Part shown: one piece after another, positions 9,704 to 28,101 of the stretch | Layout of the letters: each line of letters opens with the position of its first letter | How positions within the stretch are numbered: position 1 is the first letter of the stretch | Virus record (IMG/VR): IMGVR_UViG_3300040801_001572 | Coordinates: 1 to 64,000 of that record | Origin: a virus | DNA: 64,000 nt | Direction: 5' to 3' (one strand) | Program-made: the position numbers and the translations under genes | The notes under the pieces: model-generated | Databases searched by the model: none | Told to the model about the DNA's origin: nothing | The model's input: only the letters and a program-made list of their open reading frames with translations

Positions 9704-9705
9704 TT

Positions 9706-14432: not shown

Positions 14433-14460
14433 AGTGGACAGTTAGGTAGGAGATGAAACA

Positions 14461-14910: not shown

Positions 14911-14911
14911 C

Positions 14912-15097: not shown

Positions 15098-15098
15098 A

Positions 15099-15613: not shown

Positions 15614-15688
15614 CCAATTGATGCTATAGCCACCCAAAAAGAAATGGTCGAATAAATGGTTGACGTTGGGGCTGGTTGGATGTATCAT
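15602..15688 (+). promoter_or_regulatory. tandem sigma-70-type promoters for the ATPase gene
   Basis: Upstream pair TTGACA-17-TATAGC (15602-15630) and downstream pair TTGACG-17-TATCAT (15660-15688). The second has GGTTGGAT, the inverted spacer element. Both transcribe 15737. Confidence 0.75.
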
Positions 15689-15697
15689 GTGTTTTGT

Positions 15698-15713
15698 TAG
15701 CTGTTAGGAGCTA
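15698..15713 (+). promoter_or_regulatory. 5'-terminal mRNA hairpin, GTTAGG loop
   Basis: TAGCT-GTTAGG-AGCTA at the predicted 5' end of the downstream transcript. It covaries with the stem at 10820-10835 and is followed by the same CACACAGGAGA ribosome site. Confidence 0.72.
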
Positions 15714-15736
15714 GCAACAACACACAGGAGATAGAA

Positions 15737-16846
15737 ATGTTTTTTGTTAAGATTGAAAACGCCAAGCACAGAAATCAAAAAGTGCCCGTTGATGTCTACC
15801 CTGTCGTTAAGGACTACGACGAAGACAAGGGTCAGATGACGATCCTCACTGACGGGAAGACCAAGCCCTTCCAAGTCAAGAACGCTCGCATCAAGCTGGA
15901 CGAGGGCGACTTCTTCTACTGCAACAAGGACGGGGAAGCTATTGACCCGGACACGATCCGCTCTATGCAGAGCGCTGCAGGCGAAGTTGAAACTGACGAA
16001 GCTGCTATTGCTGAGTTCCTCGCTAACGAAAGCGAAGACGACGCAATGGAGCGCATCGGCAAGCAGTTCCAAATGCTGGAGCGTATCACTGACGCGAGTG
16101 CGCGAGGCATTGTGCGCGGGCTTGTAGTGAGTGGTCCTCCCGGCATCGGTAAGAGCTTCGGCGTGTACAAGCAATTGGCCGAAGCGAACCTGACCCGCAA
16201 GCTTGCAGACGACGCTACCTGCTACGACATCGTGAAAGGCACTTGTACTGCGATCGCACTGTATCAGTCGCTGTACTTGAATCGTCACAAGGGCTTCGTT
16301 ACTGTGTTCGACGACTGTGACGACATCCTGTTCGACGACACTTGCCTGAACATGCTCAAGGCAGCACTGGACTCGGGCAACAAGCGCATACTGAGCTATC
16401 GCGCAGAGAGCCGTGTGCTGAAGGAAGCTGACATCCCCGACAGCTTCGAGTTCGAGGGCAGCATCATCTTCCTTACGAACTTGGACTTCGAGGCCCTGAG
16501 CCAGTCGGACAAGAAGAAGGCCATGCACTTGGGTGCTATCGTGTCGCGCTGTCACTACCTGGACTTGGAGATCAGCACTCAGCGTGATCAGCTGCTTCGC
16601 ATCAAGCAGATTGTACGCGCAGGCATGCTGGACGAGTTCGAGTTTGAGAACGGCGAAGAGCAGATGATCGTAGACTGGATCTTCCAGGAAGCGAACTACT
16701 TGCGTGAGCTGAGCCTGCGCATGGTCAAGAAGATTGCTGACTTCGTAGCAGCTGAACCTAACAACTGGGAAGACTTTGCTGTGAGCACTTGCTTGCGCAA
16801 GGACGCTCGTTACAGAAGGATGCTGGAGGCCAAGAAGGAGTCCTAA
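15737..16846 (+). CDS. AAA-type ATPase, 369 aa
   Basis: Walker A GPPGIGKS at 133-140, Walker B VTVFDDCDD at 188-196, and a sensor-1-like FLTNLD near 245-250. An N-terminal domain (1-80) precedes it and may choose the substrate. It is the largest product of the early region, with tandem promoters and a stabilising leader. Phage AAA proteins of this size act as DNA-associated motors or remodelling factors, but nothing here shows the substrate. The C-terminal 100 residues are helical (lid-like). An intrinsic terminator follows. Confidence 0.88.
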   Translation: MFFVKIENAKHRNQKVPVDVYPVVKDYDEDKGQMTILTDGKTKPFQVKNARIKLDEGDFFYCNKDGEAIDPDTIRSMQSAAGEVETDEAAIAEFLANESEDDAMERIGKQFQMLERITDASARGIVRGLVVSGPPGIGKSFGVYKQLAEANLTRKLADDATCYDIVKGTCTAIALYQSLYLNRHKGFVTVFDDCDDILFDDTCLNMLKAALDSGNKRILSYRAESRVLKEADIPDSFEFEGSIIFLTNLDFEALSQSDKKKAMHLGAIVSRCHYLDLEISTQRDQLLRIKQIVRAGMLDEFEFENGEEQMIVDWIFQEANYLRELSLRMVKKIADFVAAEPNNWEDFAVSTCLRKDARYRRMLEAKKES

Positions 16847-16884
16847 GGGACTCCAACCTCCCCCGACCGAACATCTCCTGACCT

Positions 16885-16911
16885 GGACGCCCTAACACGG
16901 CGTCCTTTTTT
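16885..16911 (+). terminator. intrinsic terminator
   Basis: GGACGCC-CTAACAC-GGCGTCC followed by six T. Confidence 0.93.
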
Positions 16912-16929
16912 GTTGGAGCCATTTCGAGC

Positions 16930-16959
16930 TTGCGCTCCAACACAGGAGCCCGGTATACT
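16930..16959 (+). promoter_or_regulatory. weak sigma-70-type promoter
   Basis: TTGCGC, 18 bp, TATACT. It lacks both the TCCATCCA spacer element and the GTTAG leader, so the next gene may be outside the common early regulation. Confidence 0.6.
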
Positions 16960-16989
16960 GTGCCCAACAATAACAAAGGAGGTTCAGCA

Positions 16990-17178
16990 ATGAACACACA
17001 ACTAGTCCTGGTCAACACAGAGACCAACGAAGCAACATTCTTTTCTACCATCACTGATGCAGCTCAGTACCTGCGTCGTGACACCAGCACTGTGAGTCGT
17101 GCGCTGAGTGGCGATCGTAACTGCCGCACTGTAGCAGGCCACGTAGCAGTAGCAGTACCTGAGTACCTGCTAGGCTAA
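16990..17178 (+). CDS. NUMOD1-type DNA-binding protein, 62 aa
   Basis: Behind AAAGGAGGTTCAGCA. Residues about 20-50 (TITDAAQYLRRDTSTVSRAL then AGHVAV) match the NUMOD1 helix-turn-helix module that accompanies homing nucleases. Here it stands alone without a nuclease domain, so it is either a remnant of a homing enzyme or a small repressor. Own weak promoter and terminator. Confidence 0.75.
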   Translation: MNTQLVLVNTETNEATFFSTITDAAQYLRRDTSTVSRALSGDRNCRTVAGHVAVAVPEYLLG

Positions 17179-17202
17179 CACACTGCTAGCCCCCTACCCG
17201 AT

Positions 17203-17226
17203 AAGCCCGCTCCGTGCGGGCTTTTT
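17203..17226 (+). terminator. intrinsic terminator
   Basis: AAGCCCGC-TCCGT-GCGGGCTT followed by a T run. Confidence 0.92.
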
Positions 17227-17232
17227 CTTGGA

Positions 17233-17261
17233 TTGACATTTTGGTCCATTGGCAGTATCAT
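17233..17261 (+). promoter_or_regulatory. sigma-70-type early promoter
   Basis: TTGACA, 17 bp with GGTCCATTGG, TATCAT; leader GTTAGTTAGGAGTTAGGAG. Confidence 0.85.
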
Positions 17262-17294
17262 ATGCTTGTTAGTTAGGAGTTAGGAGATCAACCC

Positions 17295-18044
17295 ATGCAC
17301 AACCTGAGCCAACTCAAGCGTGAATGTGAACAGCGCATTGAAGAGACCATCCAGAAGGTTGAAGCACACTACGACATCGAGTTCCCCCGTGTGCCTATCG
17401 TGTGGAGTCGCAAGATGACATCCACTGCTGGTACTGCTCGGTACTCGCGATTGACCTACAAGCCCGTTCGCATCACACTGAGCGAGCCCTTGCTGAAACT
17501 GAACCCCACTGAGTTCGTGGACGACACCCCTGCCCACGAAGCAGTACACCTGCTGGCCAACTTCATTCACCAAACGGACTGTGGTCATGGTCCCAAGTGG
17601 AAGAGCATGATGCGCTTGGTAGGTGCACCCACAGATCGTACTCACAACATGGAGACGCCCAAGACTGGTACCGCACACCACTGTCGCTGTCGTGTGTATC
17701 ACCTGGGCCCAGTTCGCACTCGCAAGATTGCCAACGGCTTAGCTTACACCTGCAAGACCTGTAAGCACAAGCTGGTAAGGGGCATGGGTCCTTTCCAGTC
17801 AGCCAGTGACCGAGTAGAGGTCCGCCCTGAGAAGCCGCAGGAGAAACTGTTCCGCCCCGAAACTGAGTCAGGTACCAAGAGCTCCATGGTGCGTGATTGG
17901 ATCCGCAAGTTTCAGAAGTCGGGCATCATGGACGCGAATGTGATCTGCGGCTCGGACAAGATCATGAGTGAGATCTGTGCATCAACTGGTTTGGATCTCG
18001 CCCTGGCCCGCAAGTATGTACGCAACAACTGGAGCAAGGTATGA
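17295..18044 (+). CDS. SprT-like zinc metalloprotease, 249 aa
   Basis: HEAVH at 81-85 is the HExxH zinc site. Downstream CGHGPKWKSMM supplies the third His, as in SprT/Spartan enzymes. Residues about 130-157 have HCRC..YTCKTC, the zinc ribbon at the end of SprT domains. Residues 165-249 are an extra basic/helical part, with a final helix-turn-helix-like segment (DKIMSEICASTGLDLALARK). SprT-type proteases cut DNA-bound or cross-linked proteins; here the likely role is clearing host or phage DNA-bound proteins (inference). ATGA overlap with a tiny membrane gene. Confidence 0.88.
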   Translation: MHNLSQLKRECEQRIEETIQKVEAHYDIEFPRVPIVWSRKMTSTAGTARYSRLTYKPVRITLSEPLLKLNPTEFVDDTPAHEAVHLLANFIHQTDCGHGPKWKSMMRLVGAPTDRTHNMETPKTGTAHHCRCRVYHLGPVRTRKIANGLAYTCKTCKHKLVRGMGPFQSASDRVEVRPEKPQEKLFRPETESGTKSSMVRDWIRKFQKSGIMDANVICGSDKIMSEICASTGLDLALARKYVRNNWSKV

Positions 18045-18130
18045 AGCGACTGGCACGTAAGATGGCAGGCCCACTGTGCTTGATACTGATGGGCGCACTG
18101 TTCGGACTGGTAATAGGAGTACAACTATGA
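18041..18130 (+). CDS. single-span micro-membrane protein, 29 aa
   Basis: ATGA overlap with the protease stop and with the next ATG. Basic start MKRLARK, then one hydrophobic helix (GPLCLILMGALFGLVIGV). Too short for comparisons; the perfect coupling on both sides supports it. Confidence 0.6.
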   Translation: MKRLARKMAGPLCLILMGALFGLVIGVQL

Positions 18131-18234
18131 ACTGGCTCAAGTTTGTGGGAGCACTGGTAATCTTGCTCCTCATATCGTTCATGGCAGTGAGAGCATTCCA
18201 AATGCTGTGCGAAGACCAGGGGTCAGACGAATGA
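18127..18234 (+). CDS. single-span micro-membrane protein, 35 aa
   Basis: ATGA overlaps on both sides, with GGAG just upstream. One membrane segment (VGALVILLLISFMAV) and an acidic tail (CEDQGSDE). Confidence 0.62.
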   Translation: MNWLKFVGALVILLLISFMAVRAFQMLCEDQGSDE

Positions 18235-18392
18235 GACTGATACCTTTCTTGTTGCTCATTGTGTTTCTAATGGGCGCACTGATCACTGTGATGCTATCGG
18301 AATGGGATGCCCAGTATGAAAGAAGCCAAGCGGAAAGAGTCAGAGATGCCATTGGTCATGTGTCTACCCGTGATCATATGGATCGTGTGTGA
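18231..18392 (+). CDS. single-span membrane protein, 53 aa
   Basis: ATGA overlap start. N-terminal segment LIPFLLLIVFLMGALITVML, then a soluble charged tail. FLMGALI resembles ILMGALF in the product at 18041. Confidence 0.65.
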   Translation: MRLIPFLLLIVFLMGALITVMLSEWDAQYERSQAERVRDAIGHVSTRDHMDRV

Positions 18393-18421
18393 ACTCAGTT
18401 ACAGAGTGTAGGAGGAAGGTA

Positions 18422-18613
18422 ATGTACAGCCCTAGAAGAGGATGGGTGATACACCATATAGTCATACTGGTTATCAACGCAGTGGGCTTTGGTGCGCTGA
18501 TGCCCATCGACGCGATCGCGTACAAGATGCTGACTGCCTTGGGAGCAATGACATCCACTTGGCTGCTACTGAGCGAAGTGTTTCGAAAGGCACCCGAGGA
18601 GAGCAGTGACTGA
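18422..18613 (+). CDS. two-span membrane protein, 63 aa
   Basis: ATG behind GTAGGAGGAAGGTA; a GTG at 18389 in the same frame is possible but lacks a ribosome site. Two hydrophobic segments (HIVILVINAVGFGALM and LTALGAMTSTWLLL) and an acidic tail. Confidence 0.68.
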   Translation: MYSPRRGWVIHHIVILVINAVGFGALMPIDAIAYKMLTALGAMTSTWLLLSEVFRKAPEESSD

Positions 18614-19004
18614 GTGACTTCCTAAAATATCCCACGGAGCCGGCTGTGTGCTGAAAACCCCAGAACTTGGAAGCCGGTGGCAATCCGCTACTCAAATTTT
18701 TTGGGTACAGTATAGGCCTCCCCTCCGTATACTATTAATGCCCCTCTCTAGAACTATTCACTAACTGTGTGCTCTACTGTATATGCATAATCTGTGTTCT
18801 CAATCTGGGTGAGCTAGATATATGGGCAAATCTCACTTTAACTTGTAAAAATACCCCTCAAACCGGGCAAAATCACAGAACAAATCCGGTCTGCATAATG
18901 TGAGCAAGGGTTTTGGTTTTTGAATGTATTCGACCCGAAATCATAAGTTGACTATTCACTAACTGTGCTGTACAGTGTGAGCTCTATTAACTGAGTTACT
19001 CACT
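18614..19004 (+). other. intergenic region with a 16-bp direct repeat
   Basis: No credible ORF in about 390 bases. CTATTCACTAACTGTG occurs twice, at about 18754 and 18951, the second copy forming the spacer of the promoter at 18948. Near the left end AGCCGG recurs (palindrome AGCCGGCT), and AT-rich stretches follow. Probably a promoter-control region for the membrane array. Confidence 0.6.
18948..18976 (+). promoter_or_regulatory. promoter of the membrane-protein array
   Basis: TTGACT, 17 bp (ATTCACTAACTGTGCTG), TACAGT. No TCCATCCA element and no GTTAG leader, so it differs from the early cassettes. Another is not visible until 24434. Confidence 0.65.
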
Positions 19005-19202
19005 ATGCACAAGCGTCAAGTACAAGGTATTCAATTTGAAGCGGGCTACACAGGCTTTATGGTTGGTTTAGGGATAGCTATGAGCATGGCAGCATTTCAG
19101 CAAAGTGAAACATTCATAGGTTGGGTGTTTGCTGTGGGTAGCTTGTCACTTTTTGGCTTGTTTGTACGCAACTACATTCGTGCACCAGGAGAAACAGATT
19201 AA
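19005..19202 (+). CDS. array membrane protein 1, 65 aa
   Basis: First ORF after the 18948 promoter. Two membrane segments (GFMVGLGIAMSMAAF; GWVFAVGSLSLFGLFV), basic loop RNYIRAP at the end. TAATG overlap to the next ORF. Confidence 0.68.
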   Translation: MHKRQVQGIQFEAGYTGFMVGLGIAMSMAAFQQSETFIGWVFAVGSLSLFGLFVRNYIRAPGETD

Positions 19203-19354
19203 TGTTTAACTCATTCTTTTTAGGTGTGCTGTTTGCAAGCTCTACCATAGTGAGCGTGTCAGCAGTGGTAGGTGCAGGTCCATTTTCAATAGCGCTAGCA
19301 AGTGGTGCTATCAGTGTAGCTTCACTGTTTGGGTTTTGGTATATTTCACGATGA
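19202..19354 (+). CDS. array membrane protein 2, 50 aa
   Basis: TAATG overlap start and ATGA overlap end. Almost entirely two hydrophobic segments rich in Ser/Ala/Gly, joined by GAGP. Confidence 0.63.
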   Translation: MFNSFFLGVLFASSTIVSVSAVVGAGPFSIALASGAISVASLFGFWYISR

Positions 19355-19518
19355 CATTCAATTCTGTACAACTCAATCGTTTTACTGGGGCAGTATTCAC
19401 TGTGCTGGGTTTTGTGCTGCTGGGTTCCGAAACAGATGCTCACTTGGGGATATGCTTGCTGGCAGGAATGGGCATATTTGTAGGTGGGGTATTCACAGGA
19501 GCAGCTACTCGTGAGTAA
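19351..19518 (+). CDS. array membrane protein 3, 55 aa
   Basis: ATGA overlap start. Two spans (FTGAVFTVLGFVLLG; LGICLLAGMGIFVGGVFTGAA) around an acidic loop SETDAH. Confidence 0.65.
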   Translation: MTFNSVQLNRFTGAVFTVLGFVLLGSETDAHLGICLLAGMGIFVGGVFTGAATRE

Positions 19519-19723
19519 CTTGGATAGATTCACTGCCGTTGTTACTGCGGTTTGGTACTTGGTATTCGTGCCCTGGTTTGTGATCACATTTACTGATTCT
19601 GCGTGGGCGTGGTTTGTGCTGGGTGTGATTGTGGTCCTAGCACTGGTTGATCTGTATGTGCTTTGTGTACATCGTGTGTGGCCATGGCAGTGGTATCGGC
19701 TTAGAGAGGAACACAATGACTAA
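19511..19723 (+). CDS. array membrane protein 4, 70 aa
   Basis: GTG at 19511 overlaps the preceding gene by eight bases. Two spans (VVTAVWYLVFVPWFVITF; FVLGVIVVLALVDLYVL) and a Trp-rich, charged tail. Confidence 0.65.
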   Translation: MSNLDRFTAVVTAVWYLVFVPWFVITFTDSAWAWFVLGVIVVLALVDLYVLCVHRVWPWQWYRLREEHND

Positions 19724-19922
19724 ATGGGCGTGGGCTGCGGCAGCGGCGGCGTGGTTCAGTCTAGCGGTGTGGGTCTTGTTTCTCGACCTGGGCCCAGATT
19801 GCCAGCCGGATATCAGCCAGAGCTGTGTGCTGGTGCCAGCCCTAGGTCTAGCTGTGTTTGTGGCTCTGTGTGCTGTGTGCATGGCACAAGCTGTGTGTTA
19901 TCCCGGAGAGGCAGATGACTAA
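19716..19922 (+). CDS. array membrane protein 5, 68 aa
   Basis: ATG behind AGAGAGGAACACA. First span is a poly-Ala run (WAWAAAAAAWFSLAVWVLFL). The loop has two Cys (C-QPDISQSC) that could form a disulfide if periplasmic. Second span is Cys-rich. Confidence 0.66.
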   Translation: MTKWAWAAAAAAWFSLAVWVLFLDLGPDCQPDISQSCVLVPALGLAVFVALCAVCMAQAVCYPGEADD

Positions 19923-20076
19923 ACTGACCAAACTGTTGATCTGTGGTGGTAGTTTGATTGTGGGTGGTACTGCTATGACTCTTGCGGGCTCGGATCTGGG
20001 CTTGATCGGATGCTTTCTGGGTGGACTGCTCTTAGGTCGAGCTGTTAGACTGTGGGATTCAGGAGAAAACCTGTGA
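19915..20076 (+). CDS. array membrane protein 6, 53 aa
   Basis: Overlaps the preceding gene by eight bases. Two Gly-rich spans (LLICGGSLIVGGTAMTLAG; LGLIGCFLGGLLLGRAV). Confidence 0.65.
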   Translation: MTKLTKLLICGGSLIVGGTAMTLAGSDLGLIGCFLGGLLLGRAVRLWDSGENL

Positions 20077-20252
20077 GCTTTCGACCTTTCCGTGATCTGC
20101 GAGACAACTTTACTCTAATTGCGTTTGCAGCAGGTGTTTCGGTTGGAGCGTTCCTAACTGCTCCTTCGGTGACTACTCTGCTGGCTGTGGTGGGTTGTGC
20201 TGTAGTTACCCGACTGGCCTATCTTAGATCGGAGAAAACTGATGAATTTTAA
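20073..20252 (+). CDS. array membrane protein 7, 59 aa
   Basis: GTG in GTGA overlap, behind AGGAGAAAACCT. Basic N-terminus (FRPFRDLRD), then two Ala/Val-rich spans. Confidence 0.66.
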   Translation: MSFRPFRDLRDNFTLIAFAAGVSVGAFLTAPSVTTLLAVVGCAVVTRLAYLRSEKTDEF

Positions 20253-20427
20253 TCCTATTGAAAACCCCCTAGATGAGCTGTGTGTGAACTGCTTTATCTC
20301 AGGTATCCTGGCAACCATGTGCTATTTTCGGCCCAGCTTTCTAGCTGCGTTCTGTGTGTCGGTTGCTATTATCCTTACTTACCGAGCCTATTCTAAAACT
20401 CGGCAGGAGATGACAGATGAAGTTTAA
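20242..20427 (+). CDS. array membrane protein 8, 61 aa
   Basis: Opens MNFNPIENPLDEL, matched by MKFNPFENSIDML in the next ORF: a tandem duplicate pair. Two spans follow (NCFISGILATMCYF; FLAAFCVSVAIILTY), with TYRAYSK corresponding to QAYRRVR. Confidence 0.7.
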   Translation: MNFNPIENPLDELCVNCFISGILATMCYFRPSFLAAFCVSVAIILTYRAYSKTRQEMTDEV

Positions 20428-20587
20428 CCCCTTTGAAAACTCTATTGATATGTTGACTGTCCAAGCTGTTCTTTCGGGCGCGATCCTGGGAGTGTTTGTC
20501 AGTAATAAGCCCAGTATGGTTGGTGCTGTGTTTCTGGGACTGGCAGCAGTGTTCCTGGTCCAAGCATACAGGCGTGTGCGAAGATAA
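20417..20587 (+). CDS. array membrane protein 9, 56 aa
   Basis: Paralogue of the preceding ORF: same FNP-EN-D-L opening, ISG/LSG at the start of span 1 and an AY-R ending. Overlaps it by 11 bases. Confidence 0.68.
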   Translation: MKFNPFENSIDMLTVQAVLSGAILGVFVSNKPSMVGAVFLGLAAVFLVQAYRRVRR

Positions 20588-20639
20588 CTGTGCTGATAAT
20601 TGTTCAGGGAGAAACCAGCGCTAGCGGCGGGCTGCGGCG

Positions 20640-20855
20640 GTGAGATCCGAACTCCACAGCTTCCTGGGCGTGATCCTTCTGCTCTGGAACTGTTTTCAAA
20701 CAGGCATGACTGCGATCATATTCTCCATTGAGCAGTTCGGTGATCTAAACGTTGTGGTTGCGGGTCTTATGCTTGGGTTTGGTATGTGGTACACCATGAA
20801 CTTCGCTGGGCATTGGATGGATCCAAGAAGCACCGAGGAACAACTGGGTGGGTGA
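20640..20855 (+). CDS. array membrane protein 10, 71 aa
   Basis: Opens at GTG 20640 with a poor ribosome site in a GC-rich patch, after a 52-base gap; the true start may differ. LGVILLLW in span 1 and YTMNF at the end of span 2 place it in the Asn-signature subfamily. Confidence 0.62.
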   Translation: MRSELHSFLGVILLLWNCFQTGMTAIIFSIEQFGDLNVVVAGLMLGFGMWYTMNFAGHWMDPRSTEEQLGG

Positions 20856-21042
20856 AACTGGTGTACTTTTACTGTGCATAGTGATCACGGTGTGGTACCT
20901 AGTCACAGTGTCTTTGACTGCTGCACTGCTAGGACACTATGTTGATGTGAGTGATGCTCTGCTGGTGTTCTTTTGGGGTATTGCTACCTGCGCGAATGTG
21001 ATCAATTATATGGAAAGTGTACACCTGGAGAGTCGTTTATGA
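20848..21042 (+). CDS. array membrane protein 11, 64 aa
   Basis: GTG start overlapping by eight bases. Spans LLLCIVITVWYLVTVSL and ALLVFFWGIATCANVIN; the Asn and then ESVHLES follow span 2. Confidence 0.66.
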   Translation: MGETGVLLLCIVITVWYLVTVSLTAALLGHYVDVSDALLVFFWGIATCANVINYMESVHLESRL

Positions 21043-21230
21043 ACCCGGGATTTGTAGCTGTGCACATCGGTCAGATCATATGGTACTGGGCACTGGCTAG
21101 CTTGTGTTCTGAAGCGATGTATGCTGCTAATGAACTTTGGTGGGTTAGCAAACCGGCCACTGTGAGCTCAGTGGCTATTCCTATCATGCTTCACTGCCTC
21201 AACAACTTGATCAGCATGGACGACTTTTAA
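21039..21230 (+). CDS. array membrane protein 12, 63 aa
   Basis: ATGA overlap start. HIGQIIWYWALASL in span 1 with acidic residues after it; SVAIPIMLHCLNNL in span 2 carries the Asn signature. Confidence 0.67.
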   Translation: MNPGFVAVHIGQIIWYWALASLCSEAMYAANELWWVSKPATVSSVAIPIMLHCLNNLISMDDF

Positions 21231-21436
21231 TGCTCATGCCCTTTCGAACTGCTCTTGGTGTGATTGTGATCCTGTGGTGTTGCACACTGGGCGGTGCAGT
21301 GGCCCAGGCACTAGAGTTAGTGGAAACAGCACTGAACTGGCCCCGGGGCATTTTATCTCTCAGTTGGATGGTGTTCACAGTGTATTCTGCACTGAACTGG
21401 GTAGACGGTGTAGCGCCAGAGGAGATGGAGTGGTGA
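21230..21436 (+). CDS. array membrane protein 13, 68 aa
   Basis: TAATG overlap start. ALGVIVILW closely matches LGVILLLW of member 10; span 2 ends YSALNW, followed by an acidic tail. Confidence 0.68.
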   Translation: MLMPFRTALGVIVILWCCTLGGAVAQALELVETALNWPRGILSLSWMVFTVYSALNWVDGVAPEEMEW

Positions 21437-21648
21437 GTGGCTGGCAAATGACACTGGGTGTATGCTTCATAGTATGGTGGAGCTCGGTTGCTTCGAGCAT
21501 AACCACATTCTGGATATTTTACGGCATGAACTTGGGTGACATACCTGTTGTGCTGTGTGTGCTGACTCTGTGCCTCGTGAACAGTTTTCGATGTGCCGAA
21601 CTGTGCTGGAATCCGCAGCAGTGGTACTATAGGATGATGCTGCAATGA
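21433..21648 (+). CDS. array membrane protein 14, 71 aa
   Basis: GTG in GTGA overlap. TLGVCFIVWW in span 1; VLTLCLVNSFRCAE at the end of span 2 (Asn then Glu). Confidence 0.67.
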   Translation: MSGWQMTLGVCFIVWWSSVASSITTFWIFYGMNLGDIPVVLCVLTLCLVNSFRCAELCWNPQQWYYRMMLQ

Positions 21649-21872
21649 TAAGTCCGTGGGAACTGCTTGGTACTCTGTGTACCATAGTATGGTGTATGTT
21701 TATGATCAGTCTCATACTGTCTGTATCACTGTACATTGTGTCTCCTTATCTTTTGAGCGCGATTGCCATAGCAGTGTCGATAGTTTCTACTGTGCTGTTT
21801 GGTCTCAATCTTTCAGAAATTATACATCCCACCCCCCGTTCTCCCGGTGACTTTTTTAGCCATGGATTTTAG
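21645..21872 (+). CDS. array membrane protein 15, 75 aa
   Basis: ATGA overlap start. LGTLCTIVW in span 1 and STVLFGLNLSE at the end of span 2. Overlaps the next gene by 11 bases. Confidence 0.67.
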   Translation: MISPWELLGTLCTIVWCMFMISLILSVSLYIVSPYLLSAIAIAVSIVSTVLFGLNLSEIIHPTPRSPGDFFSHGF

Positions 21873-22053
21873 TCCGGGGTGGTTAACGGTTCACAGCACA
21901 CTACAGATAGTGACCTGTAGCTTAGGCGCTGTGTACTGTGCACAAAGTTTCACAGAAGCCGGAGTGCTGGTATCAATGCTGTTTGTGTTTACCACGTGGT
22001 GGTTGTTCAACATGCTGGAATATTGCTGGGAAGAGCAGAGGGCACCCCTATGA
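21862..22053 (+). CDS. array membrane protein 16, 63 aa
   Basis: ATG 21862. Spans STLQIVTCSLGAVYCA and VSMLFVFTTWWLFNMLE, the last with the Asn-x-x-Glu pattern. Confidence 0.66.
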   Translation: MDFSPGWLTVHSTLQIVTCSLGAVYCAQSFTEAGVLVSMLFVFTTWWLFNMLEYCWEEQRAPL

Positions 22054-22241
22054 GTTTTCGCACTAGGGCCACAGTGTTTTGGTTTTTTGCACAGTACATG
22101 ATAGTGTCAAGTGGAATACTGATTTCGATGCCAGGAAATGGAGCTCTTCCAATCGCAATAGGGTTCGTACTGTTTAACATTCATGCGTGTTATAACTTTG
22201 ATCGAGAGCCCCAATCAACAATATGGTACTGGCATGAGTGA
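22050..22241 (+). CDS. array membrane protein 17, 63 aa
   Basis: ATGA overlap start. Spans VFWFFAQYMIVSSGILI and LPIAIGFVLFNIHACYN, then DREPQ. Confidence 0.66.
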   Translation: MSFRTRATVFWFFAQYMIVSSGILISMPGNGALPIAIGFVLFNIHACYNFDREPQSTIWYWHE

Positions 22242-22440
22242 ATCGCAATACATGGACATAGCTTCTTTTGGTGCTCTCTGGTGTATAGCACTGGGTGTAC
22301 TTGGAGGCTGGTTCTGCTTGAACTACAATGCAGTGTGGGCACTTCTGTACATGGCGATGTGCGCTGGCACAGGACTGAACTGGATTTTCTGGTGTGTTAG
22401 TCAGACACATTATTTCCATTTTCGATTCGGAGATGCCTAA
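22234..22440 (+). CDS. array membrane protein 18, 68 aa
   Basis: Overlaps the previous gene by eight bases. Spans FGALWCIALGVLGGWFCL and LLYMAMCAGTGLNWIFW. Confidence 0.66.
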   Translation: MSESQYMDIASFGALWCIALGVLGGWFCLNYNAVWALLYMAMCAGTGLNWIFWCVSQTHYFHFRFGDA

Positions 22441-22644
22441 GTGACTGGCAGAAGCCGGCCCAGGTCTGGCAGCTCTAGCTGGCTGTTCATAATCTCATCG
22501 GTCAGCTATGGCTTTGCAGGCAGTACCATGTTCATGTTGATACTAATGGGCATCCTAAATGATCCAATCACTGTATCAGCTGCACTGGTGGTAGGAACAC
22601 TGTATATTCATCAGATTCATCTGTTTGTGAAGCTAATACCGTGA
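22441..22644 (+). CDS. array membrane protein 19, 67 aa
   Basis: GTG immediately after the previous stop. Basic Arg/Ser-rich start (GRSRPRSGSSS), then two spans. The second ends LYIHQIHLF, lacking the Asn signature. Confidence 0.62.
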   Translation: MTGRSRPRSGSSSWLFIISSVSYGFAGSTMFMLILMGILNDPITVSAALVVGTLYIHQIHLFVKLIP

Positions 22645-22817
22645 CAGTTCAGTTTCGTTGGATATTTTTATTAGTGCTATTTGTGTGCATAGGCAACAGT
22701 GTGTACAGCACCTGCTTAGAAAACTTTGAGCATCCTGAGTTAGTGTTGGGCTCAATGACTGCGATGATGGTAAACTTCGGTACTGTAATGAACTTAGCTC
22801 GTTGTGCTCAATCGTGA
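22641..22817 (+). CDS. array membrane protein 20, 58 aa
   Basis: GTG in GTGA overlap at both ends. Spans WIFLLVLFVCIGNSVYS and LGSMTAMMVNFGTVMNLA, with Asn at the end of span 2; the loop is acidic (LENFEHPE). Confidence 0.63.
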   Translation: MTVQFRWIFLLVLFVCIGNSVYSTCLENFEHPELVLGSMTAMMVNFGTVMNLARCAQS

Positions 22818-23032
22818 CTAGTGGAACAAAACATACCCTTGTACAGTTACTGAACCTAGTAACATGGGGTGCAATTGCAGTACTGTGTAACCACATCGAG
22901 GTCAGTCCCCACCCTGCTGTGAGCTTTTTACTGTGGTTCTTTTTGGTAGTGACCACAGTGTTGCTATTTCTTCATCCTTTTTGTTATTATGCACAAGGAC
23001 GAAGCGACAAGGGATCAACGGAACCATGGTAA
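22814..23032 (+). CDS. array membrane protein 21, 72 aa
   Basis: GTG in GTGA overlap. Spans LLNLVTWGAIAVLC and FLLWFFLVVTTVLLFL; charged tail. No Asn signature. Confidence 0.63.
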   Translation: MTSGTKHTLVQLLNLVTWGAIAVLCNHIEVSPHPAVSFLLWFFLVVTTVLLFLHPFCYYAQGRSDKGSTEPW

Positions 23033-23241
23033 CTGCTACAAAGTCTATCTTGCAGGGTATCCTTGTGCTTTGGATGCTGGCTAACCTAGCTCTTGCTTTG
23101 TTGGCAATTGGCGGGGGCCTAGGACTACTAGTATTCTGGGGAGATTGGGACGCAGCAGTTACAGCTGGTCACATATTGTATTCCCAGTCGTCGCAGATGA
23201 CATTTGCTGTGTTCGCGTATTCCGAGATCGAAGAGATTTGA
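23026..23241 (+). CDS. array membrane protein 22, 71 aa
   Basis: ATG 23026, overlapping the previous gene. One long Gly/Leu-rich hydrophobic stretch (ILVLWMLANLALALLAIGGG and on), then a loop and a weak second span; acidic end SEIEEI. Confidence 0.63.
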   Translation: MVTATKSILQGILVLWMLANLALALLAIGGGLGLLVFWGDWDAAVTAGHILYSQSSQMTFAVFAYSEIEEI

Positions 23242-23242
23242 T

Positions 23243-23548
23243 ATGTTGGCATTGTTTTTCAGTGCAATGACTGTGGTGGCTCTGCTGTTTTATGGAATAG
23301 TGACGTTGCTGTGGCTAGATACTAAACAGTACCATCGTCGAGCAAAAGGATGGTGTGCTTCGGTTATCGTTTCGTCTATGTTTGCGATGTTACTCACAGT
23401 AGGCCTAATTGATTATCAATTAGTCAAACCGGAAGCTCACGCATTGCTAGCTTCGTTTGGTGCACTAAGCGTGTTCGTATTGACAGGGATATACGGAGAT
23501 TTAATTCACGACATGACTTTGATAGATTGGTGGGACGATGACAGTTAA
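23243..23548 (+). CDS. membrane protein, three spans, 101 aa
   Basis: ATG one base after the preceding stop. Larger than its neighbours: spans at about 5-25, 40-58 and 68-88, and an acidic tail WWDDDS. Confidence 0.66.
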   Translation: MLALFFSAMTVVALLFYGIVTLLWLDTKQYHRRAKGWCASVIVSSMFAMLLTVGLIDYQLVKPEAHALLASFGALSVFVLTGIYGDLIHDMTLIDWWDDDS

Positions 23549-23720
23549 CATTCAGGTGATGGTTAACAAATTATCATTCTTTATACACGTCGGTCTGTTT
23601 GTGGCTATCGCACTGAGCATGGTGTTCCGAGGTGTGCACGATATTGTGACTGAGTGCCTGTTCTTTAGTCTGCTTGTGATAATTCCCTTAGGTATGGGCT
23701 TTGGTTCGGAGGATGAATGA
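23538..23720 (+). CDS. two-span membrane protein, 60 aa
   Basis: Overlaps by 11 bases. Spans FFIHVGLFVAIALSMVF and CLFFSLLVIIPLGMGF; acidic end. Confidence 0.64.
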   Translation: MTVNIQVMVNKLSFFIHVGLFVAIALSMVFRGVHDIVTECLFFSLLVIIPLGMGFGSEDE

Positions 23721-23947
23721 AACTTACAAATCTTTTGTGTCCAGCTGATCTTTCATCTGCTAGCAACTCGGAACTGGTGTTAATGTTCTTTCGGCAGAGT
23801 TTCAGTCTAGCAGTGACTCTTATTCTGTCGTTGCTTGCATGGCACTGGTGGATCCTTGTGTTGTTGGCCTTCCTTGCTTGGTTGTCTGGATCGTTCTGCT
23901 ATCACGGATGGCAAGAGCTTGAGCGTCGGCTAGACAGTGACAGTTGA
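23717..23947 (+). CDS. two-span membrane protein, 76 aa
   Basis: ATGA overlap start. Polar N-terminal 25 residues, then spans SLAVTLILSLLAW and ILVLLAFLAWLSGSF; charged tail ELERRLDSDS. Confidence 0.65.
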   Translation: MKLTNLLCPADLSSASNSELVLMFFRQSFSLAVTLILSLLAWHWWILVLLAFLAWLSGSFCYHGWQELERRLDSDS

Positions 23948-24107
23948 AGAACTCATAACTGCCTTTTTCTCTGCCACGTGCTTCTGTTCTGTGATGACCG
24001 CAGGGCTCGTTGTGCAATCGGCAGGACTGGGATGTGTGATGCTGTATTTCACACTGCTGTTCATGCTACCAATGGTTTCCGACGATATGTCGCCTGGATT
24101 GCTTTGA
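23937..24107 (+). CDS. two-span membrane protein, 56 aa
   Basis: GTG start overlapping by 11 bases. Spans AFFSATCFCSVMTAGLVV and VMLYFTLLFMLPMV. A late-promoter-like motif follows. Confidence 0.58.
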   Translation: MTVEELITAFFSATCFCSVMTAGLVVQSAGLGCVMLYFTLLFMLPMVSDDMSPGLL

Positions 24108-24110
24108 TCT

Positions 24111-24118
24111 AATAAATA
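24111..24118 (+). promoter_or_regulatory. T4-type late promoter motif
   Basis: AATAAATA, about 28 bases before the ATG at 24146. Confidence 0.5.
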
Positions 24119-24145
24119 ACTGCATCACTGTTGTTGGAGATATCG

Positions 24146-24433
24146 ATGCACTGGCCGTGGCAACCGAAACAGAACGAACTGGACAGCCAATCCTTGCGTC
24201 GCCTAAAACAGTGGTACAGAATTCTCCTCGCTTCACGTTATATCTTTACTGCTGCACTGCTAATATCTTTGCTTGTGCTGATATCAAACTCACTGTTTGT
24301 GCCTTGCTTAATCTTACCCCTTATGTGGTGGTATATGTGGTGGATTTTGGGCAAATTTATCGACGATGTGGTGGATTATGCCCAAGACATCGTGGTATAC
24401 GATCATTGTCCTAAATTCAAGCACAAAATCTAA
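24146..24433 (+). CDS. two-span membrane protein, 95 aa
   Basis: ATG at 24146 follows TTGGAG at a good distance; TTG at 24131 is an alternative. Basic N-terminal 35 residues, then FTAALLISLLVLISN and LILPLMWWYMWWILG, and a soluble tail. Stop TAA abuts the next -35 box. Confidence 0.66.
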   Translation: MHWPWQPKQNELDSQSLRRLKQWYRILLASRYIFTAALLISLLVLISNSLFVPCLILPLMWWYMWWILGKFIDDVVDYAQDIVVYDHCPKFKHKI

Positions 24434-24462
24434 TTGACATTACCACAGTTTGGTGCCATACT
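24434..24462 (+). promoter_or_regulatory. sigma-70-type promoter
   Basis: TTGACA, 17 bp, CATACT. No GTTAG leader. Confidence 0.7.
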
Positions 24463-24496
24463 TCACTGAACTAAATGTGTTGCTAGAGGAAACACT

Positions 24497-24853
24497 GTGA
24501 CCGCTAATCGTATTGGGCCAGGCTGGCTAATCTTCATGGGTGTTATTTTTGTGCTACAGGCCCTAGGCGCTGTTGCTCTTCAAACAGCATCAGAAATTCT
24601 CGCATTTGTTGGCATCGGCTGTTTCTTTGTGTACGAGCTTGTACGCTACATGCGACAGGTAGAATGGTCCGATTGGCATCGTAATCAATTCTTTGCATTC
24701 GGGTGTTTCTTTCTCATGATGGCATTTTATGCAGACCCAGATCCGTCTGGGTTTGGACAGGTCTTGAAATGGTTCTACATACTGGGCACAGTGTGGTTCA
24801 CTTTCGGACTCATCGGAATCTACTATCAGTCAGTGAGAGGCGAAGATGATTAA
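24497..24853 (+). CDS. four-span membrane protein, 118 aa
   Basis: GTG behind AGAGGAAACACT. Four hydrophobic segments at about 9-28, 33-49, 65-80 and 92-112, with a basic loop between 2 and 3. Double the usual size of its neighbours, so possibly a fused duplication. Confidence 0.68.
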   Translation: MTANRIGPGWLIFMGVIFVLQALGAVALQTASEILAFVGIGCFFVYELVRYMRQVEWSDWHRNQFFAFGCFFLMMAFYADPDPSGFGQVLKWFYILGTVWFTFGLIGIYYQSVRGEDD

Positions 24854-25058
24854 ATATGTGCTGATCCTGTTCATCAATTTTGGTCATCCGGATATTCCCA
24901 GCGACCAGTGGAGCATCTCGGTAACCAAGATCGACAAACAGTTCCAGAGCGAGAAAGACTGTCACCAGTTCGCTCGTGAAATACGAGAAGCAAACAACAT
25001 GTTGAGCAAGGTCACGGAAGCTCACATTTGCCAACCTGTGGAGTTCGAGGCGCCATGA
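24846..25058 (+). CDS. hypothetical protein, 70 aa
   Basis: Overlaps the preceding gene by eight bases. Short hydrophobic start (MIKYVLILFINFG) and a soluble alpha/beta body; not a typical two-span protein. Possibly peripheral to the membrane. Confidence 0.66.
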   Translation: MIKYVLILFINFGHPDIPSDQWSISVTKIDKQFQSEKDCHQFAREIREANNMLSKVTEAHICQPVEFEAP

Positions 25059-25327
25059 ACCAAACGATCAATTGGAAAATCCGTCTGTTCCATACCAAGA
25101 GCAGTTTTTACTGGCTGTGGACCGGAACACTGTTCTTTGGCCTTGCTGCAAGATTCTTGGTGTTACGAGGAACCGTAGAAGCCGAGCAAGTCTCCTTGCT
25201 TACTGTGTGCATAGGCATGCTGTGTGTGAGTGGCACTATTGCTTACGTAATGGCACACAAGGTTCGCCACGAATTTGATAAAGTGAGAGTTTCTAAGTGG
25301 CACAGAGAACGTTACACCGAAGAATAA
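25055..25327 (+). CDS. two-span membrane protein, 90 aa
   Basis: ATGA overlap start. Spans FYWLWTGTLFFGLAARFLV and LTVCIGMLCVSGTIAYVMA. C-terminal soluble helix KVRVSKWHRERY resembles SIEVAQWIRFR of the next product. Confidence 0.67.
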   Translation: MNQTINWKIRLFHTKSSFYWLWTGTLFFGLAARFLVLRGTVEAEQVSLLTVCIGMLCVSGTIAYVMAHKVRHEFDKVRVSKWHRERYTEE

Positions 25328-25578
25328 TGGACAGAAATGATCCGGTGTGTAACCTTGCAGGTGCAACACTTTGGTTCATTGTCGCTATCGGTCAGTTTCT
25401 TCTGCTCGAAGATTATCACTCAGAGTCAATACCATTTATGACAGTGATGGTTGCGGTTTCCGTTGCATGTTCTGTGCTGTTAGCAACCGGCCAGATATTC
25501 ACTGCATACGAAAACTACACCAAGCACACTGTTGAGTCGATAGAAGTAGCACAGTGGATTCGCTTCCGAAACAGCTAG
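25327..25578 (+). CDS. two-span membrane protein, 83 aa
   Basis: TAATG overlap start. Spans LAGATLWFIVAIGQFLLL and MTVMVAVSVACSVLLATGQIF, then a soluble helix like that of the preceding protein; the two may be diverged duplicates. Confidence 0.66.
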   Translation: MDRNDPVCNLAGATLWFIVAIGQFLLLEDYHSESIPFMTVMVAVSVACSVLLATGQIFTAYENYTKHTVESIEVAQWIRFRNS

Positions 25579-25766
25579 ATCCAGGACGCTACGCAACCAT
25601 GTGTGACTACATTCAGTGTGGCATCGACAATGGTCTGGATATAGAAGAAATCACTCCCTGTGATCTGCATACCGAACTTTGCGACTATGCAGATCTTCCT
25701 CAAGAGTTAGGTATTTCTTCCAGAGATCTACAAACCTATCTTTTTTATTGGTACTGGTTACGATAA
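25554..25766 (+). CDS. hypothetical acidic protein, 70 aa
   Basis: GTG start overlapping the preceding ORF by 25 bases; ATG 25599 is an alternative. Acidic, Cys-containing, no membrane segment except an aromatic end (YLFYWYWLR). Lower certainty because of the long overlap. Confidence 0.55.
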   Translation: MDSLPKQLDPGRYATMCDYIQCGIDNGLDIEEITPCDLHTELCDYADLPQELGISSRDLQTYLFYWYWLR

Positions 25767-25785
25767 CAGGATAGCCGCTAAATAA

Positions 25786-25794
25786 CAGTATCAA
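25786..25794 (+). promoter_or_regulatory. T4-type late promoter-like motif
   Basis: GCTAAATAAC upstream of the ORF at 25811. Variant of the GATAAATA motif found before structural genes. Confidence 0.4.
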
Positions 25795-25810
25795 TTCCAA
25801 CGAGGCAGAG

Positions 25811-25990
25811 ATGCTGCAAAAACTGTATTTAGGGCTATGTTTTACTCTGCTGTTTTCTGCAATGGGCTTCTTCTTTCTCGCTGCATACACACTGCACTGG
25901 CTATGGGCAGGCTTAATGATATTGTGCTTAATAGCAGCTCAAGGATCATGGCGACGAATGGAGCGTCTTCAAGACCGTCGGCCTGATTGA
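25811..25990 (+). CDS. two-span membrane protein, 59 aa
   Basis: ATG behind GAGGCAGAG. Spans LCFTLLFSAMGFFFLAAY and LWAGLMILCLIAA; basic tail SWRRMERLQDRR. TGA is embedded in the next TTGACA. Confidence 0.66.
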   Translation: MLQKLYLGLCFTLLFSAMGFFFLAAYTLHWLWAGLMILCLIAAQGSWRRMERLQDRRPD

Positions 25991-26015
25991 CAATATCGCC
26001 AACATGTCTTATAAT
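25987..26015 (+). promoter_or_regulatory. perfect-consensus sigma-70 promoter
   Basis: TTGACA, 17 bp, TATAAT. The predicted start point falls on or next to the ATG at 26022. Confidence 0.75.
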
Positions 26016-26021
26016 TACGGC

Positions 26022-26255
26022 ATGTCAAACTCTGATAACGAACAACCTATACTGCTCGGCAATTTTTTGCTGTTTTTTGGGCACGCCTTAGGAATTTTCC
26101 TTGCATATCTTACGCTGGGTGCAATATTCGCGCCAGGCGAGAAAGTATGGCTCGGTATACTGTTGATGGGAGGAATCACTGTCTGGCAGGCACGTAGCAC
26201 AGGAATACTCCAGCAAAGAATGAGATCTTTAGAACAAAACGATCATGAAGAATAG
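26022..26255 (+). CDS. two-span membrane protein, possibly leaderless; 77 aa
   Basis: ATG 26022 lies seven bases after the -10 box; the upstream ATG at 26004 lies inside the promoter. No ribosome site is seen, so a leaderless mRNA is likely. Spans LLGNFLLFFGHALGIFLAYLTLG and VWLGILLMGGITV, then a charged helix. Confidence 0.65.
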   Translation: MSNSDNEQPILLGNFLLFFGHALGIFLAYLTLGAIFAPGEKVWLGILLMGGITVWQARSTGILQQRMRSLEQNDHEE

Positions 26256-26586
26256 AAAACCTAAACCACCTTTTTTGTTTTTTCCGTCTGAGGGGAAGGA
26301 TTTAGACAAGCTGAAAAAAGAGCTGCTGGTTCTAGTGAACGGACTGATCATCGGAATAACAGTTTCTGTGTTGTCGTTTTGGTTTGCATTTACTGTTGCG
26401 ACTATTTTGCCAATGGCCGAGCTTAATCCTGTCTTAGAATTTTTAGCAGTAGCATGGATAGCTGCTACCCTAATCGGCAGCATGTTTCTGTCATATCTGT
26501 CAGTTAGCACAATCAGTTCAATCAGTTCCAAGATCAGAGCGATAAGGAGCAAGAGAAATGACCTCAGGAGTAACACAACGAGCTAA
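26245..26586 (+). CDS. two-span membrane protein, 113 aa
   Basis: Overlaps the preceding gene by 11 bases. Basic/Pro-rich N-terminal 30 residues, spans GLIIGITVSVLSFWFAFTVA and LAVAWIAATLIGSMFLSYL, then a Ser/Arg/Lys-rich tail. Confidence 0.68.
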   Translation: MKNRKPKPPFLFFPSEGKDLDKLKKELLVLVNGLIIGITVSVLSFWFAFTVATILPMAELNPVLEFLAVAWIAATLIGSMFLSYLSVSTISSISSKIRAIRSKRNDLRSNTTS

Positions 26587-26857
26587 AGACAAGCTGATGG
26601 TTCTTGCTGGTCTAATTTTGTTTTTGTTGGGCACTGTGGTAGGAGTTTACATGAGGCCAGACATACCTAGTCTAGAACCAGTAATGGAAACCTACGCACA
26701 AATGGAAACCCAGTTCTCTAATCTTGCTGCGGCTTGTGCTAGACCGCAGCAAGGCACAGTCACAATTACAGGCGAAGATATTGTCGATGCTGTTCGAAAC
26801 AAACAGCTTCGATTTATCGTCAACACTGAAACTGTCGGAGGCACTCCGGTTAGATGA
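26558..26857 (+). CDS. membrane-anchored protein with soluble C-terminal domain, 99 aa
   Basis: One N-terminal anchor (LMVLAGLILFLLGTVVGVYM, about 13-32), then a helical stretch and a domain GTVTITGEDIVDAVRNKQLR. Topology resembles an inner-membrane spanin or anchored periplasmic protein, but the body is too short to say. Confidence 0.66.
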   Translation: MTSGVTQRAKDKLMVLAGLILFLLGTVVGVYMRPDIPSLEPVMETYAQMETQFSNLAAACARPQQGTVTITGEDIVDAVRNKQLRFIVNTETVGGTPVR

Positions 26858-27186
26858 GTTTCATTGATCATCATCGACTGCAATCTATTACTTCTCGTGC
26901 TGCTAGAACTAATATACGTCAAGTAATGCGTCGAATAAAAGAGAACGAGCAGGAACTGCACGATAAGATCGCAAATACGTTTCATTGCGGATTTGCTTTC
27001 ATGCCGGTTCGACTGTCAAATGGAAAGTGGATCTGGCTCAAGAAATACTATTACAATTTTTTGCCTAAAGAAACACGACCGGGCGACAAATACTTTTCGT
27101 CATTGGTAAGGTACGTTCCTAGTCGCAAAAAAGACATAAAATTAACCCCAGATGAATATCTCATACGGAAGTTAAAAAATGGCTGA
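26854..27186 (+). CDS. hypothetical soluble basic protein, 110 aa
   Basis: ATGA overlap start. Helical basic N-terminal half, then an aromatic segment (NGKWIWLKKYYYNFLP) and a basic tail. Not recognised. Confidence 0.68.
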   Translation: MSFIDHHRLQSITSRAARTNIRQVMRRIKENEQELHDKIANTFHCGFAFMPVRLSNGKWIWLKKYYYNFLPKETRPGDKYFSSLVRYVPSRKKDIKLTPDEYLIRKLKNG

Positions 27187-27271
27187 GGTACTAGGCTTCT
27201 TAGTAGTTACTGGGTTTTGTATCGGTTTCTGCTGGCTAGTATACCAAGGCGATCCCTGGAAAAAGAAATGA
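27179..27271 (+). CDS. single-span micro-membrane protein, 30 aa
   Basis: Overlaps the preceding gene by eight bases and the next by four (ATGA). One segment LGFLVVTGFCIGFCWLVY and a basic tail PWKKK. Confidence 0.55.
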   Translation: MAEVLGFLVVTGFCIGFCWLVYQGDPWKKK

Positions 27272-27618
27272 CCCCTTACATACTTAAATTTCCCATATAC
27301 GAAATCTTCGGAAGTGTATACCCGAAGGTTGCAAAGGATATCACGATCGGTAGCTCGAACTTGACTGAGATTTACAACGACCAGGGCGCCGGCGCAAGTC
27401 TAGTGAGGAAGTGTGTAGCAAAGGATAACTTGGTGTTTGAGTTTGAAACAGAAGACGCCATGCTGATGTTTACGTTAGGATGGGATAAGCACAGAATTCG
27501 TGACTGCTATATTAAGTATGTGATACAGTGGCTCAATGATATACTCGATACTAACCCAGGAAGACTTGAAGCCGACTATTACAAGAGTCTTGCTGCTCGC
27601 TTACAAGGTTTGATTTGA
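27268..27618 (+). CDS. hypothetical protein with DAMLMF-LGW motif, 116 aa
   Basis: ATGA overlap start. The segment FEFETEDAMLMFTLGWDK is related in pattern to the ATLFNLQLGKDK, ATIYNLKHGASS and ASLFELKYGREQ motifs of the three genes that follow, each near the C-terminus. First of this soluble cluster. Confidence 0.7.
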   Translation: MTPYILKFPIYEIFGSVYPKVAKDITIGSSNLTEIYNDQGAGASLVRKCVAKDNLVFEFETEDAMLMFTLGWDKHRIRDCYIKYVIQWLNDILDTNPGRLEADYYKSLAARLQGLI

Positions 27619-27622
27619 GTCA

Positions 27623-27871
27623 ATGATTACAATCGGCATCATAAACAGTACATCAGAAAAAGAAGAATACAGTATTCGCACTGTAAAGAGTGCTTTAGAT
27701 AGATTGGGTTACACAGAATACGAATCTGTGATTTACGAAGATCAGGAAGTAAAATTGGTACTCACCGAAGAACAAGCAACCCTGTTTAATTTGCAGCTCG
27801 GGAAAGACAAGGTCTTTCAGGAAATTATAGATCACGTAATGGAAAGGACTAACGCATGGCTGAAACCGTAG
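27623..27871 (+). CDS. hypothetical protein, ATLFNL-G family, 82 aa
   Basis: Beta-alpha-beta layout: IGIINSTSE, helix, ESVIYEDQEVKLVLTEEQ, then ATLFNLQLGKDK and a closing helix. Looks like a small ACT/ferredoxin-like fold. Confidence 0.7.
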   Translation: MITIGIINSTSEKEEYSIRTVKSALDRLGYTEYESVIYEDQEVKLVLTEEQATLFNLQLGKDKVFQEIIDHVMERTNAWLKP

Positions 27872-28101
27872 AATTTAGACTAGCCTTACGTAACCTCCCG
27901 GAATTTGTTGATCTATGCAATCAGGCATTACAAGAAATGGGTTATTCCTCTGCTAAGGTTTATTCATACAGACACACAGCACTAAGCACTGAGTTGCTGT
28001 GTTTTTCTCTTTCAGAGCAAGAAGCAACCATTTATAACTTAAAGCACGGTGCTAGCTCTGATCTATTAGAAAAAATGAAAGAATTAGCATTAAAGAGATA
28101 A
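27856..28101 (+). CDS. hypothetical protein, ATLFNL-G family, 81 aa
   Basis: Overlaps the preceding gene by 16 bases. Same layout as its neighbour, with FSLSEQEATIYNLKHG. Tandem duplicate. Confidence 0.7.
   Translation: MAETVEFRLALRNLPEFVDLCNQALQEMGYSSAKVYSYRHTALSTELLCFSLSEQEATIYNLKHGASSDLLEKMKELALKR

Follow-up and report, generated by a model that had tools for sequence, protein, structure and literature searches.

We examined the first 64 kb (positions 1 to 64,000, hereafter the window) of the virus record IMGVR_UViG_3300040801_001572, which is itself a fragment with a record length of 114,654 bp, and describe here an array of genes for very small membrane proteins that begins at 19.0 kb. 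The original prediction had placed over 30 coupled genes for tiny two-span proteins between 19005 and 25990; the coordinates and anatomy hold, while the count was slightly generous, as the strictly coupled part consists of 26 consecutive plus-strand open reading frames (ORFs) that span 19005-24107 and fall into runs of 9 and 17, and packing loosens past 24107, with gaps of 38 and 63 nucleotides (nt) and a mixture of membrane and soluble genes. ORFs 1-26 encode 50-101 amino acids (aa; median 64.5), nearly all of them as two-span membrane hairpins. Based on hydropathy, which was used for membrane prediction throughout, most members have two spans and gene 23 has three, with a weak second span in genes 7, 8, 17, 19, 22, and 25. 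Overlaps occur at 22 of the 25 junctions, and measure 4 nt (nine times), 8 nt (five), 11 nt (five), 1 nt (two), or 7 nt (one); the three non-overlapping junctions are 0 nt apart, 1 nt apart, and separated by a 52-nt gap at 20588-20639. All start codons are ATG or GTG, and GGAG-type sites are found 4-9 nt upstream of many starts, inside the last codons of the preceding gene. Across 19005-25990, membrane proteins represent 31 of the 33 ORFs (the exceptions being genes 29 and 32), and for the locus as a whole the proportion is 37 of 40 curated ORFs, vs 7 of 120 predicted ORFs elsewhere on the record. The array genes, with spans counted by hydropathy, are:

19005-19202 (+): gene 1, 65 aa, two spans
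19202-19354 (+): gene 2, 50 aa, two spans
19351-19518 (+): gene 3, 55 aa, two spans
19511-19723 (+): gene 4, 70 aa, two spans
19716-19922 (+): gene 5, 68 aa, two spans
19915-20076 (+): gene 6, 53 aa, two spans
20073-20252 (+): gene 7, 59 aa, paralogue of genes 8 and 9
20242-20427 (+): gene 8, 61 aa, paralogue of genes 7 and 9
20417-20587 (+): gene 9, 56 aa, paralogue of genes 7 and 8, predicted helical hairpin
20640-20855 (+): gene 10, 71 aa, Trp/Asn group, paralogue of gene 13, predicted helical hairpin
20848-21042 (+): gene 11, 64 aa, Trp/Asn group
21039-21230 (+): gene 12, 63 aa, Trp/Asn group
21230-21436 (+): gene 13, 68 aa, Trp/Asn group, paralogue of gene 10
21433-21648 (+): gene 14, 71 aa, Trp/Asn group
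21645-21872 (+): gene 15, 75 aa, Trp/Asn group
21862-22053 (+): gene 16, 63 aa, Asn signature
22050-22241 (+): gene 17, 63 aa, Trp/Asn by eye, weak second span
22234-22440 (+): gene 18, 68 aa, Trp/Asn group
22441-22644 (+): gene 19, 67 aa, membrane protein, no kinship detected
22641-22817 (+): gene 20, 58 aa, two spans, Asn signature
22814-23032 (+): gene 21, 72 aa, two spans
23026-23241 (+): gene 22, 71 aa, membrane protein
23243-23548 (+): gene 23, 101 aa, three spans
23538-23720 (+): gene 24, 60 aa, two spans
23717-23947 (+): gene 25, 76 aa, membrane protein
23937-24107 (+): gene 26, 56 aa, two spans, closes the strictly coupled run

The coupled array is far above chance expectation. When searching for chains of coupled small ORFs that each include at least one membrane span, the longest run was at most 3 in 100 dinucleotide shuffles of 18900-24200 and 0 on the antisense strand, and the best runs elsewhere in about 3.6 Mb of phage DNA, mostly from related large phages, were 6, 4, and 3, the run of 6 coming from a relative, at its syntenic locus. 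On average, codon preference supports the proposed frames, the own frame being the best of six for 16 of the 26 genes, which represents moderate support for coding. Long antisense ORFs are also present, and this only moderately frame-specific codon usage could likewise suggest an artefact, in which base composition or opposite-strand coding generates plus-strand ORFs that are not genes. However, we consider such an artefact extremely unlikely given the shuffled and antisense controls, the paralogy displayed by the plus frames at the protein level, and the overlap of starts with stops, with ribosome-binding sites at many starts.

Because membrane proteins resemble one another by composition, pair alignments were scored against shuffles that preserve the hydropathy pattern. 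Pairs 8-9 (z 17), 10-13 (7.6), 7-8 (6.2), 7-9 (5.4), and 30-31 (4.4) scored well above these shuffles, while most pairs were at background, with a mean z over all pairs of genes 1-26 of only 0.26. Leave-one-out hidden Markov models (HMMs) of group 10-18 recognised genes 10, 12, 13, 15, and 18 (p 0.0025-0.025), leaving genes 11, 14, 16, and 17 unrecognised by the rest of the group; only genes 3, 7, 8, and 9 were recognised within group 1-9, and none of genes 19-26 (every p about 0.1 or more). The two sequence signatures first noticed by eye were borne out: a hydrophobic-Asn motif at the end of the second span occurs in 8 of 9 members of group 10-18 by rule (9 of 9 by eye) and in gene 20, vs 1 of the 17 other members of 1-26 (Fisher p 5e-5), and a Trp in the first span occurs in 7 of 9 vs 2 of 17 (p 0.002), both p values being optimistic as motifs and group were picked after inspection. 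The description of the array as one diverged tandem family is thus upheld in part by member-to-member profile comparison: common descent is shown for subsets only, namely 7-8-9, 10-13, and, more weakly, the 10-18 Trp/Asn group, and no kinship is detected for genes 19-26. Judging from these alignments and profiles, the array includes at least two families in one format, with a single ancestor not proven. Both the pair and leave-one-out results suggest either divergence beyond recognition or that unrelated hairpins were also gathered at this locus.

Within members with two clear spans, lysine and arginine (K/R) are rare in the loop and aspartate and glutamate (D/E) frequent (summed charges +8/-22, with +4 thereof from the three-span gene 23), from which both termini are predicted to lie inside and a short acidic loop outside. 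AlphaFold2, using paralogues as the alignment, predicted helical hairpins of modest confidence for genes 9 and 10 (predicted local distance difference test, pLDDT, 76 and 77; predicted template modelling score, pTM, 0.41 and 0.49). Fold searches yielded nothing significant, a DNA similarity search in phages yielded no match, nor did tblastn of the concatenated array proteins against 50,697 phage records at E <= 1, and viral contig scans with array proteins returned nothing; a viral contig scan with gene 36, located downstream, returned only one contig, G005.

The record encodes baseplate, tail, sheath, head protease, and late sigma-factor genes, identified by protein scans, and two of its proteins display 42-43% identity to Pseudomonas phage PA5oct (tblastn), which together place it among large myoviruses that are distant kin of PA5oct. 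This kinship with a myovirus led us to drop an N4-like virion RNA polymerase as a reading of the 3488-aa protein. For the locus, only two close relatives were identified, G005 (47 kb) and G012 (328 kb). In both, synteny with the record extends across genes for the tail, baseplate, sigma factor, and SbcCD, mostly at 35-79% identity, and both encode the SprT-like gene. In all three phages, the interval from the SprT-like gene to the tail/baseplate cluster encodes small membrane proteins. The features that surround the array in the window are:

17295-18044 (+): SprT-like gene, 249 aa, upstream landmark (G005 identity 41-43%; G012 profile match)
18041-18130, 18127-18234, 18231-18392, 18389-18613 (+): four coupled small membrane ORFs before the main array (ORFs, overlaps, hydropathy)
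18753-18769 and 18951-18967 (+): 17-nt direct repeat ACTATTCACTAACTGTG (repeat search), in the 391-nt noncoding gap 5' of gene 1
18948-18976 (+): candidate sigma-70-type promoter of the main operon (TTGACT-17-TACAGT, 9/12; consensus scan), 29 nt 5' of gene 1
24146-24433 (+): gene 27, 95 aa, membrane protein, after the 38-nt gap
24434-24462 (+): candidate sigma-70-type promoter (10/12; consensus scan) 5' of gene 28
24497-24853, 25055-25327, 25327-25578 (+): genes 28, 30, and 31, membrane proteins, 30 and 31 related
24846-25058, 25554-25766 (+): genes 29 and 32, soluble
25811-25990 (+): gene 33, 59 aa, two spans, end of the originally predicted interval
25987-26015 (+): perfect sigma-70-type promoter sequence (TTGACA-17-TATAAT) 5' of the second ATG of gene 34
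26004-26255, 26245-26586, 26558-26857 (+): genes 34-36, membrane proteins; gene 36 is homologous to a G005 gene at the equivalent position
26854-27186 (+): gene 37, soluble, downstream landmark, likewise with a G005 homologue at the equivalent position

At this site, G012 encodes a run of seven ORFs of 67-123 aa with two to three spans, mostly three (L156:3441-5864), preceded by a perfect sigma-70-type promoter sequence (L156:3389). Most of these ORFs abut or overlap, with a recurrent junction TTGGAGAGTTAAATG and a gap of about 200 nt between Q2 and the chosen start of Q3, and the first four are interrelated, with z 3.3-4.2 for five of the six pairs among Q1-Q4 and Q3-Q4 at background. The G005 interval instead includes scattered sets, namely small membrane genes at 2139-2982 and a tandem hairpin pair at 7391-7745, alongside its homologues of genes 36 and 37. 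The ORF at 7391 was the sole match of a genes 10-20 profile among 27 related records (E 3.9e-4), and reached z 4.0 against shuffles with the 10-18 model. The same interval carries two tandem signal-peptide proteins that by eye appear to be outer-membrane barrels (L107:7825-8478 and 8472-9170), and an ORF that reads as a CCA-adding tRNA nucleotidyltransferase, with its own near-perfect sigma-70-type promoter (L107:3447-4652). A scan with the SprT-like sequence of the window alone returned nothing, and with G005 added it returned G005 and one distant contig; two phages that bear SprT but are more distant, G014 and G009, carry just one or two small membrane genes at the site, and PA5oct has no run above 3. 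A GC-rich element common to the regions 5' of gene 10 and of G005 7391 was not significant. G016 has four consecutive coupled small membrane ORFs (L187:10674-11686, minus strand) between glycosyltransferase-like and structural-looking ORFs, a run that was rejected as a syntenic locus as it is not at an SprT locus; it resembles the G012 set in its C-terminal 'RLK' endings. The SprT-to-tail interval of the two relatives thus holds fewer such genes than that of the window, mostly unrelated to them, and across these three phages of one lineage the position of the site is conserved while its content is replaced. This syntenic comparison favours a fast-turnover membrane locus; of the roles guessed at in the original prediction, namely mixed pores, blocking of host membrane sensors, and variation to escape defence, it lends no specific support to pores.

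Strong sigma-70-type promoters are distributed across the locus in the window, G005, and G012, and the record encodes a separate phage late sigma factor. Taken together, this suggests that the array is probably expressed early from host sigma-70-type promoters. No further copy of the 17-mer ACTATTCACTAACTGTG was found in the window at up to 3 mismatches, and a link between this repeat and arrays was rejected, as the two other viral contigs that carry it, no more than chance by estimate, have no adjoining array.

Several observations were made elsewhere on the record. Window positions 1-18000 have a G+C content of 51-55%, vs 39-47% in most of the remainder, and many small ORFs with function unassigned. 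Three small soluble ORFs located 3' of the array (27268-28101), which have look-alikes at the equivalent position in both G005 and G012, may constitute a second paralogous family based on one alignment. Farther along, the record encodes an SbtA-like Na+-dependent bicarbonate transporter (89496-90419, plus strand; Pfam Sbt_1, E 9.5e-91), which has 40% identity to marine Bacteroidota proteins and is without match among the 50,697 phage records, and a phage protein combining TPR repeats with a TonB C-terminal domain (95324-96412, plus strand).

We tentatively propose that the 26-gene coupled operon is an expanded form of a hypervariable membrane-interference locus of this lineage, whose function we infer to be superinfection exclusion or anti-defence, and we give this reading somewhat less than an even chance of being correct. 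As starts overlap upstream stops and the last upstream codons often carry a ribosome-binding site, ribosomes would pass from cistron to cistron along the array, and this tight coupling would lead to many different hairpins being co-produced in similar amounts. Each product would insert into the host inner membrane as a two-helix hairpin in the predicted orientation, probably early in infection, where single members would bind membrane components of the host or of a competitor, and would keep the genomes of other phages from entering or block membrane-anchored defence. The repertoire would change via tandem duplication, divergence, and replacement. Fast turnover at a fixed site is expected from an arms race, and for this reason we favour an action at the inner membrane against defence or rival genome entry, although neutral replacement would also be expected to turn over the content. 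Other results also weigh against the proposed role: the 9/12 promoter candidate of the main operon is at chance level by count, with its position as sole support, and no array member matched exclusion or defence families in Pfam, PHROG, and PADLOC-type searches, in which family comparisons were overall uninformative. PADLOC profiles of known anti-phage defence proteins yielded only two hits for 41 proteins (E 0.018 and 0.041), and the family profile of T4 Imm was absent from the 25 best of the 33 Pfam families at E <= 0.5, the other 8 ranking below E 0.09. T4 Imm is nonetheless similar in format, as a membrane protein annotated for exclusion with 83 aa and two predicted spans, and by this analogy the two-span small format can serve exclusion. 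It differs from the array in being a single gene, unrelated by profile search, and its loop carries K/R, unlike that of most array members, so that its topology may differ; the score of gene 8 against T4 Imm (z 5.1) is isolated and the best of 41 proteins tried. A more speculative extension of the membrane-interference reading, which we regard as unlikely in this specific form, is that the lineage maintains a dedicated site generating hairpin repertoires, with the whole set rather than one protein blocking membrane-located defence or rivals. Since each gene carries the ribosome-binding site of its successor within its final codons, coupled cistrons would duplicate as units, each duplication adding a ready-to-translate hairpin in fixed proportion.

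The main competing explanation, which we consider improbable but still deserving of serious attention, is a takeover of the host membrane in which the hairpins act like bacterial small regulatory membrane proteins, each binding one transporter, respiratory enzyme, or envelope enzyme, to redirect physiology, independently of defence and exclusion. The sizes, the topology, and the early-type promoters are equally compatible with this, and the SbtA-like transporter indicates that the phage acts on host membrane transport; however, the fast replacement of sets between related phages would be less expected for fixed physiological targets. Alternatively, the array may grow and decay with little benefit to the phage, since each coupled cistron carries the ribosome-binding site of the next and would duplicate easily. 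Repeated junctions, duplicates, and the many members without detectable kinship are consistent with this neutral or selfish expansion, yet all 26 frames are intact despite the compactness of phage genomes, the hydrophobic-hairpin format was retained through divergence, and pair 8-9, the only one with a usable estimate, has nonsynonymous divergence (dN 0.70) below synonymous divergence (dS 1.85, near saturation), so that we judge it rather improbable.

A lysis module, in which the hairpins would be holins, antiholins, or pinholins in mixed pores, is very unlikely. Class II holins are proteins of 50-100 aa with two spans and both ends inside, a topology matched by the charge distribution of the members with two clear spans, and the searches included one weak PHROG holin match (E 0.026). 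However, class II holins are usually one or two per phage, adjoin lysis genes, and are expressed late, none of which was seen at the array: its 26 genes far exceed lysis needs, the promoters look early rather than late, and no lysis gene was found among the proteins scanned around the locus, which covered only part of the genes of a record that is a fragment.

Arrays of small membrane-protein genes have been reported from Arthrobacter clusters AM/AU, Rhodococcus cluster CC (Pepy6/Poco6), and Gordonia DJ phages (PMC5513430, PMC5679793, PMC13313380). As in the array described here, these actinophage arrays gather many small genes of unassigned function, largely encoding membrane proteins, in one place near tail genes. 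Unlike it, the published arrays combine membrane genes with periplasmic and soluble ones and belong to another phage lineage; the proteins of cluster AU have a mean length of 137 aa and usually a single span, and the mixed arrays of Poco6 and Caterpillar have a longest tightly coupled run of 2. Counts of looser chains, in which nested ORFs enter twice, were set aside. No relatives by sequence were found among the published proteins: tblastn against the 50,697 phage records gave none at E <= 1, and a small local database gave only a 33-residue match to Caterpillar (E 0.003). Compared with these open-access reports, the locus is a denser, nearly hairpin-only form of a known kind of array, in an unrelated lineage. 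The runs of G012 and G005 share with it the SprT-to-tail position and small coupled membrane ORFs, and differ in the mostly three-span format of the former and in the scattered sets and apparent barrels of the latter. What appears to be new is this matching locus of small membrane proteins in relatives, with a fixed site and changing content. In a screen of mycobacteriophage Hammy, overproduced membrane proteins were not uniformly toxic (PMC10700055), so that toxicity alone would be poor evidence of function. Many phage small membrane proteins are without known function, and the 26 encoded in this one operon provide a defined set for testing. If its members are indeed exclusion or anti-defence factors, the site would show where to look for further such factors in related phages.

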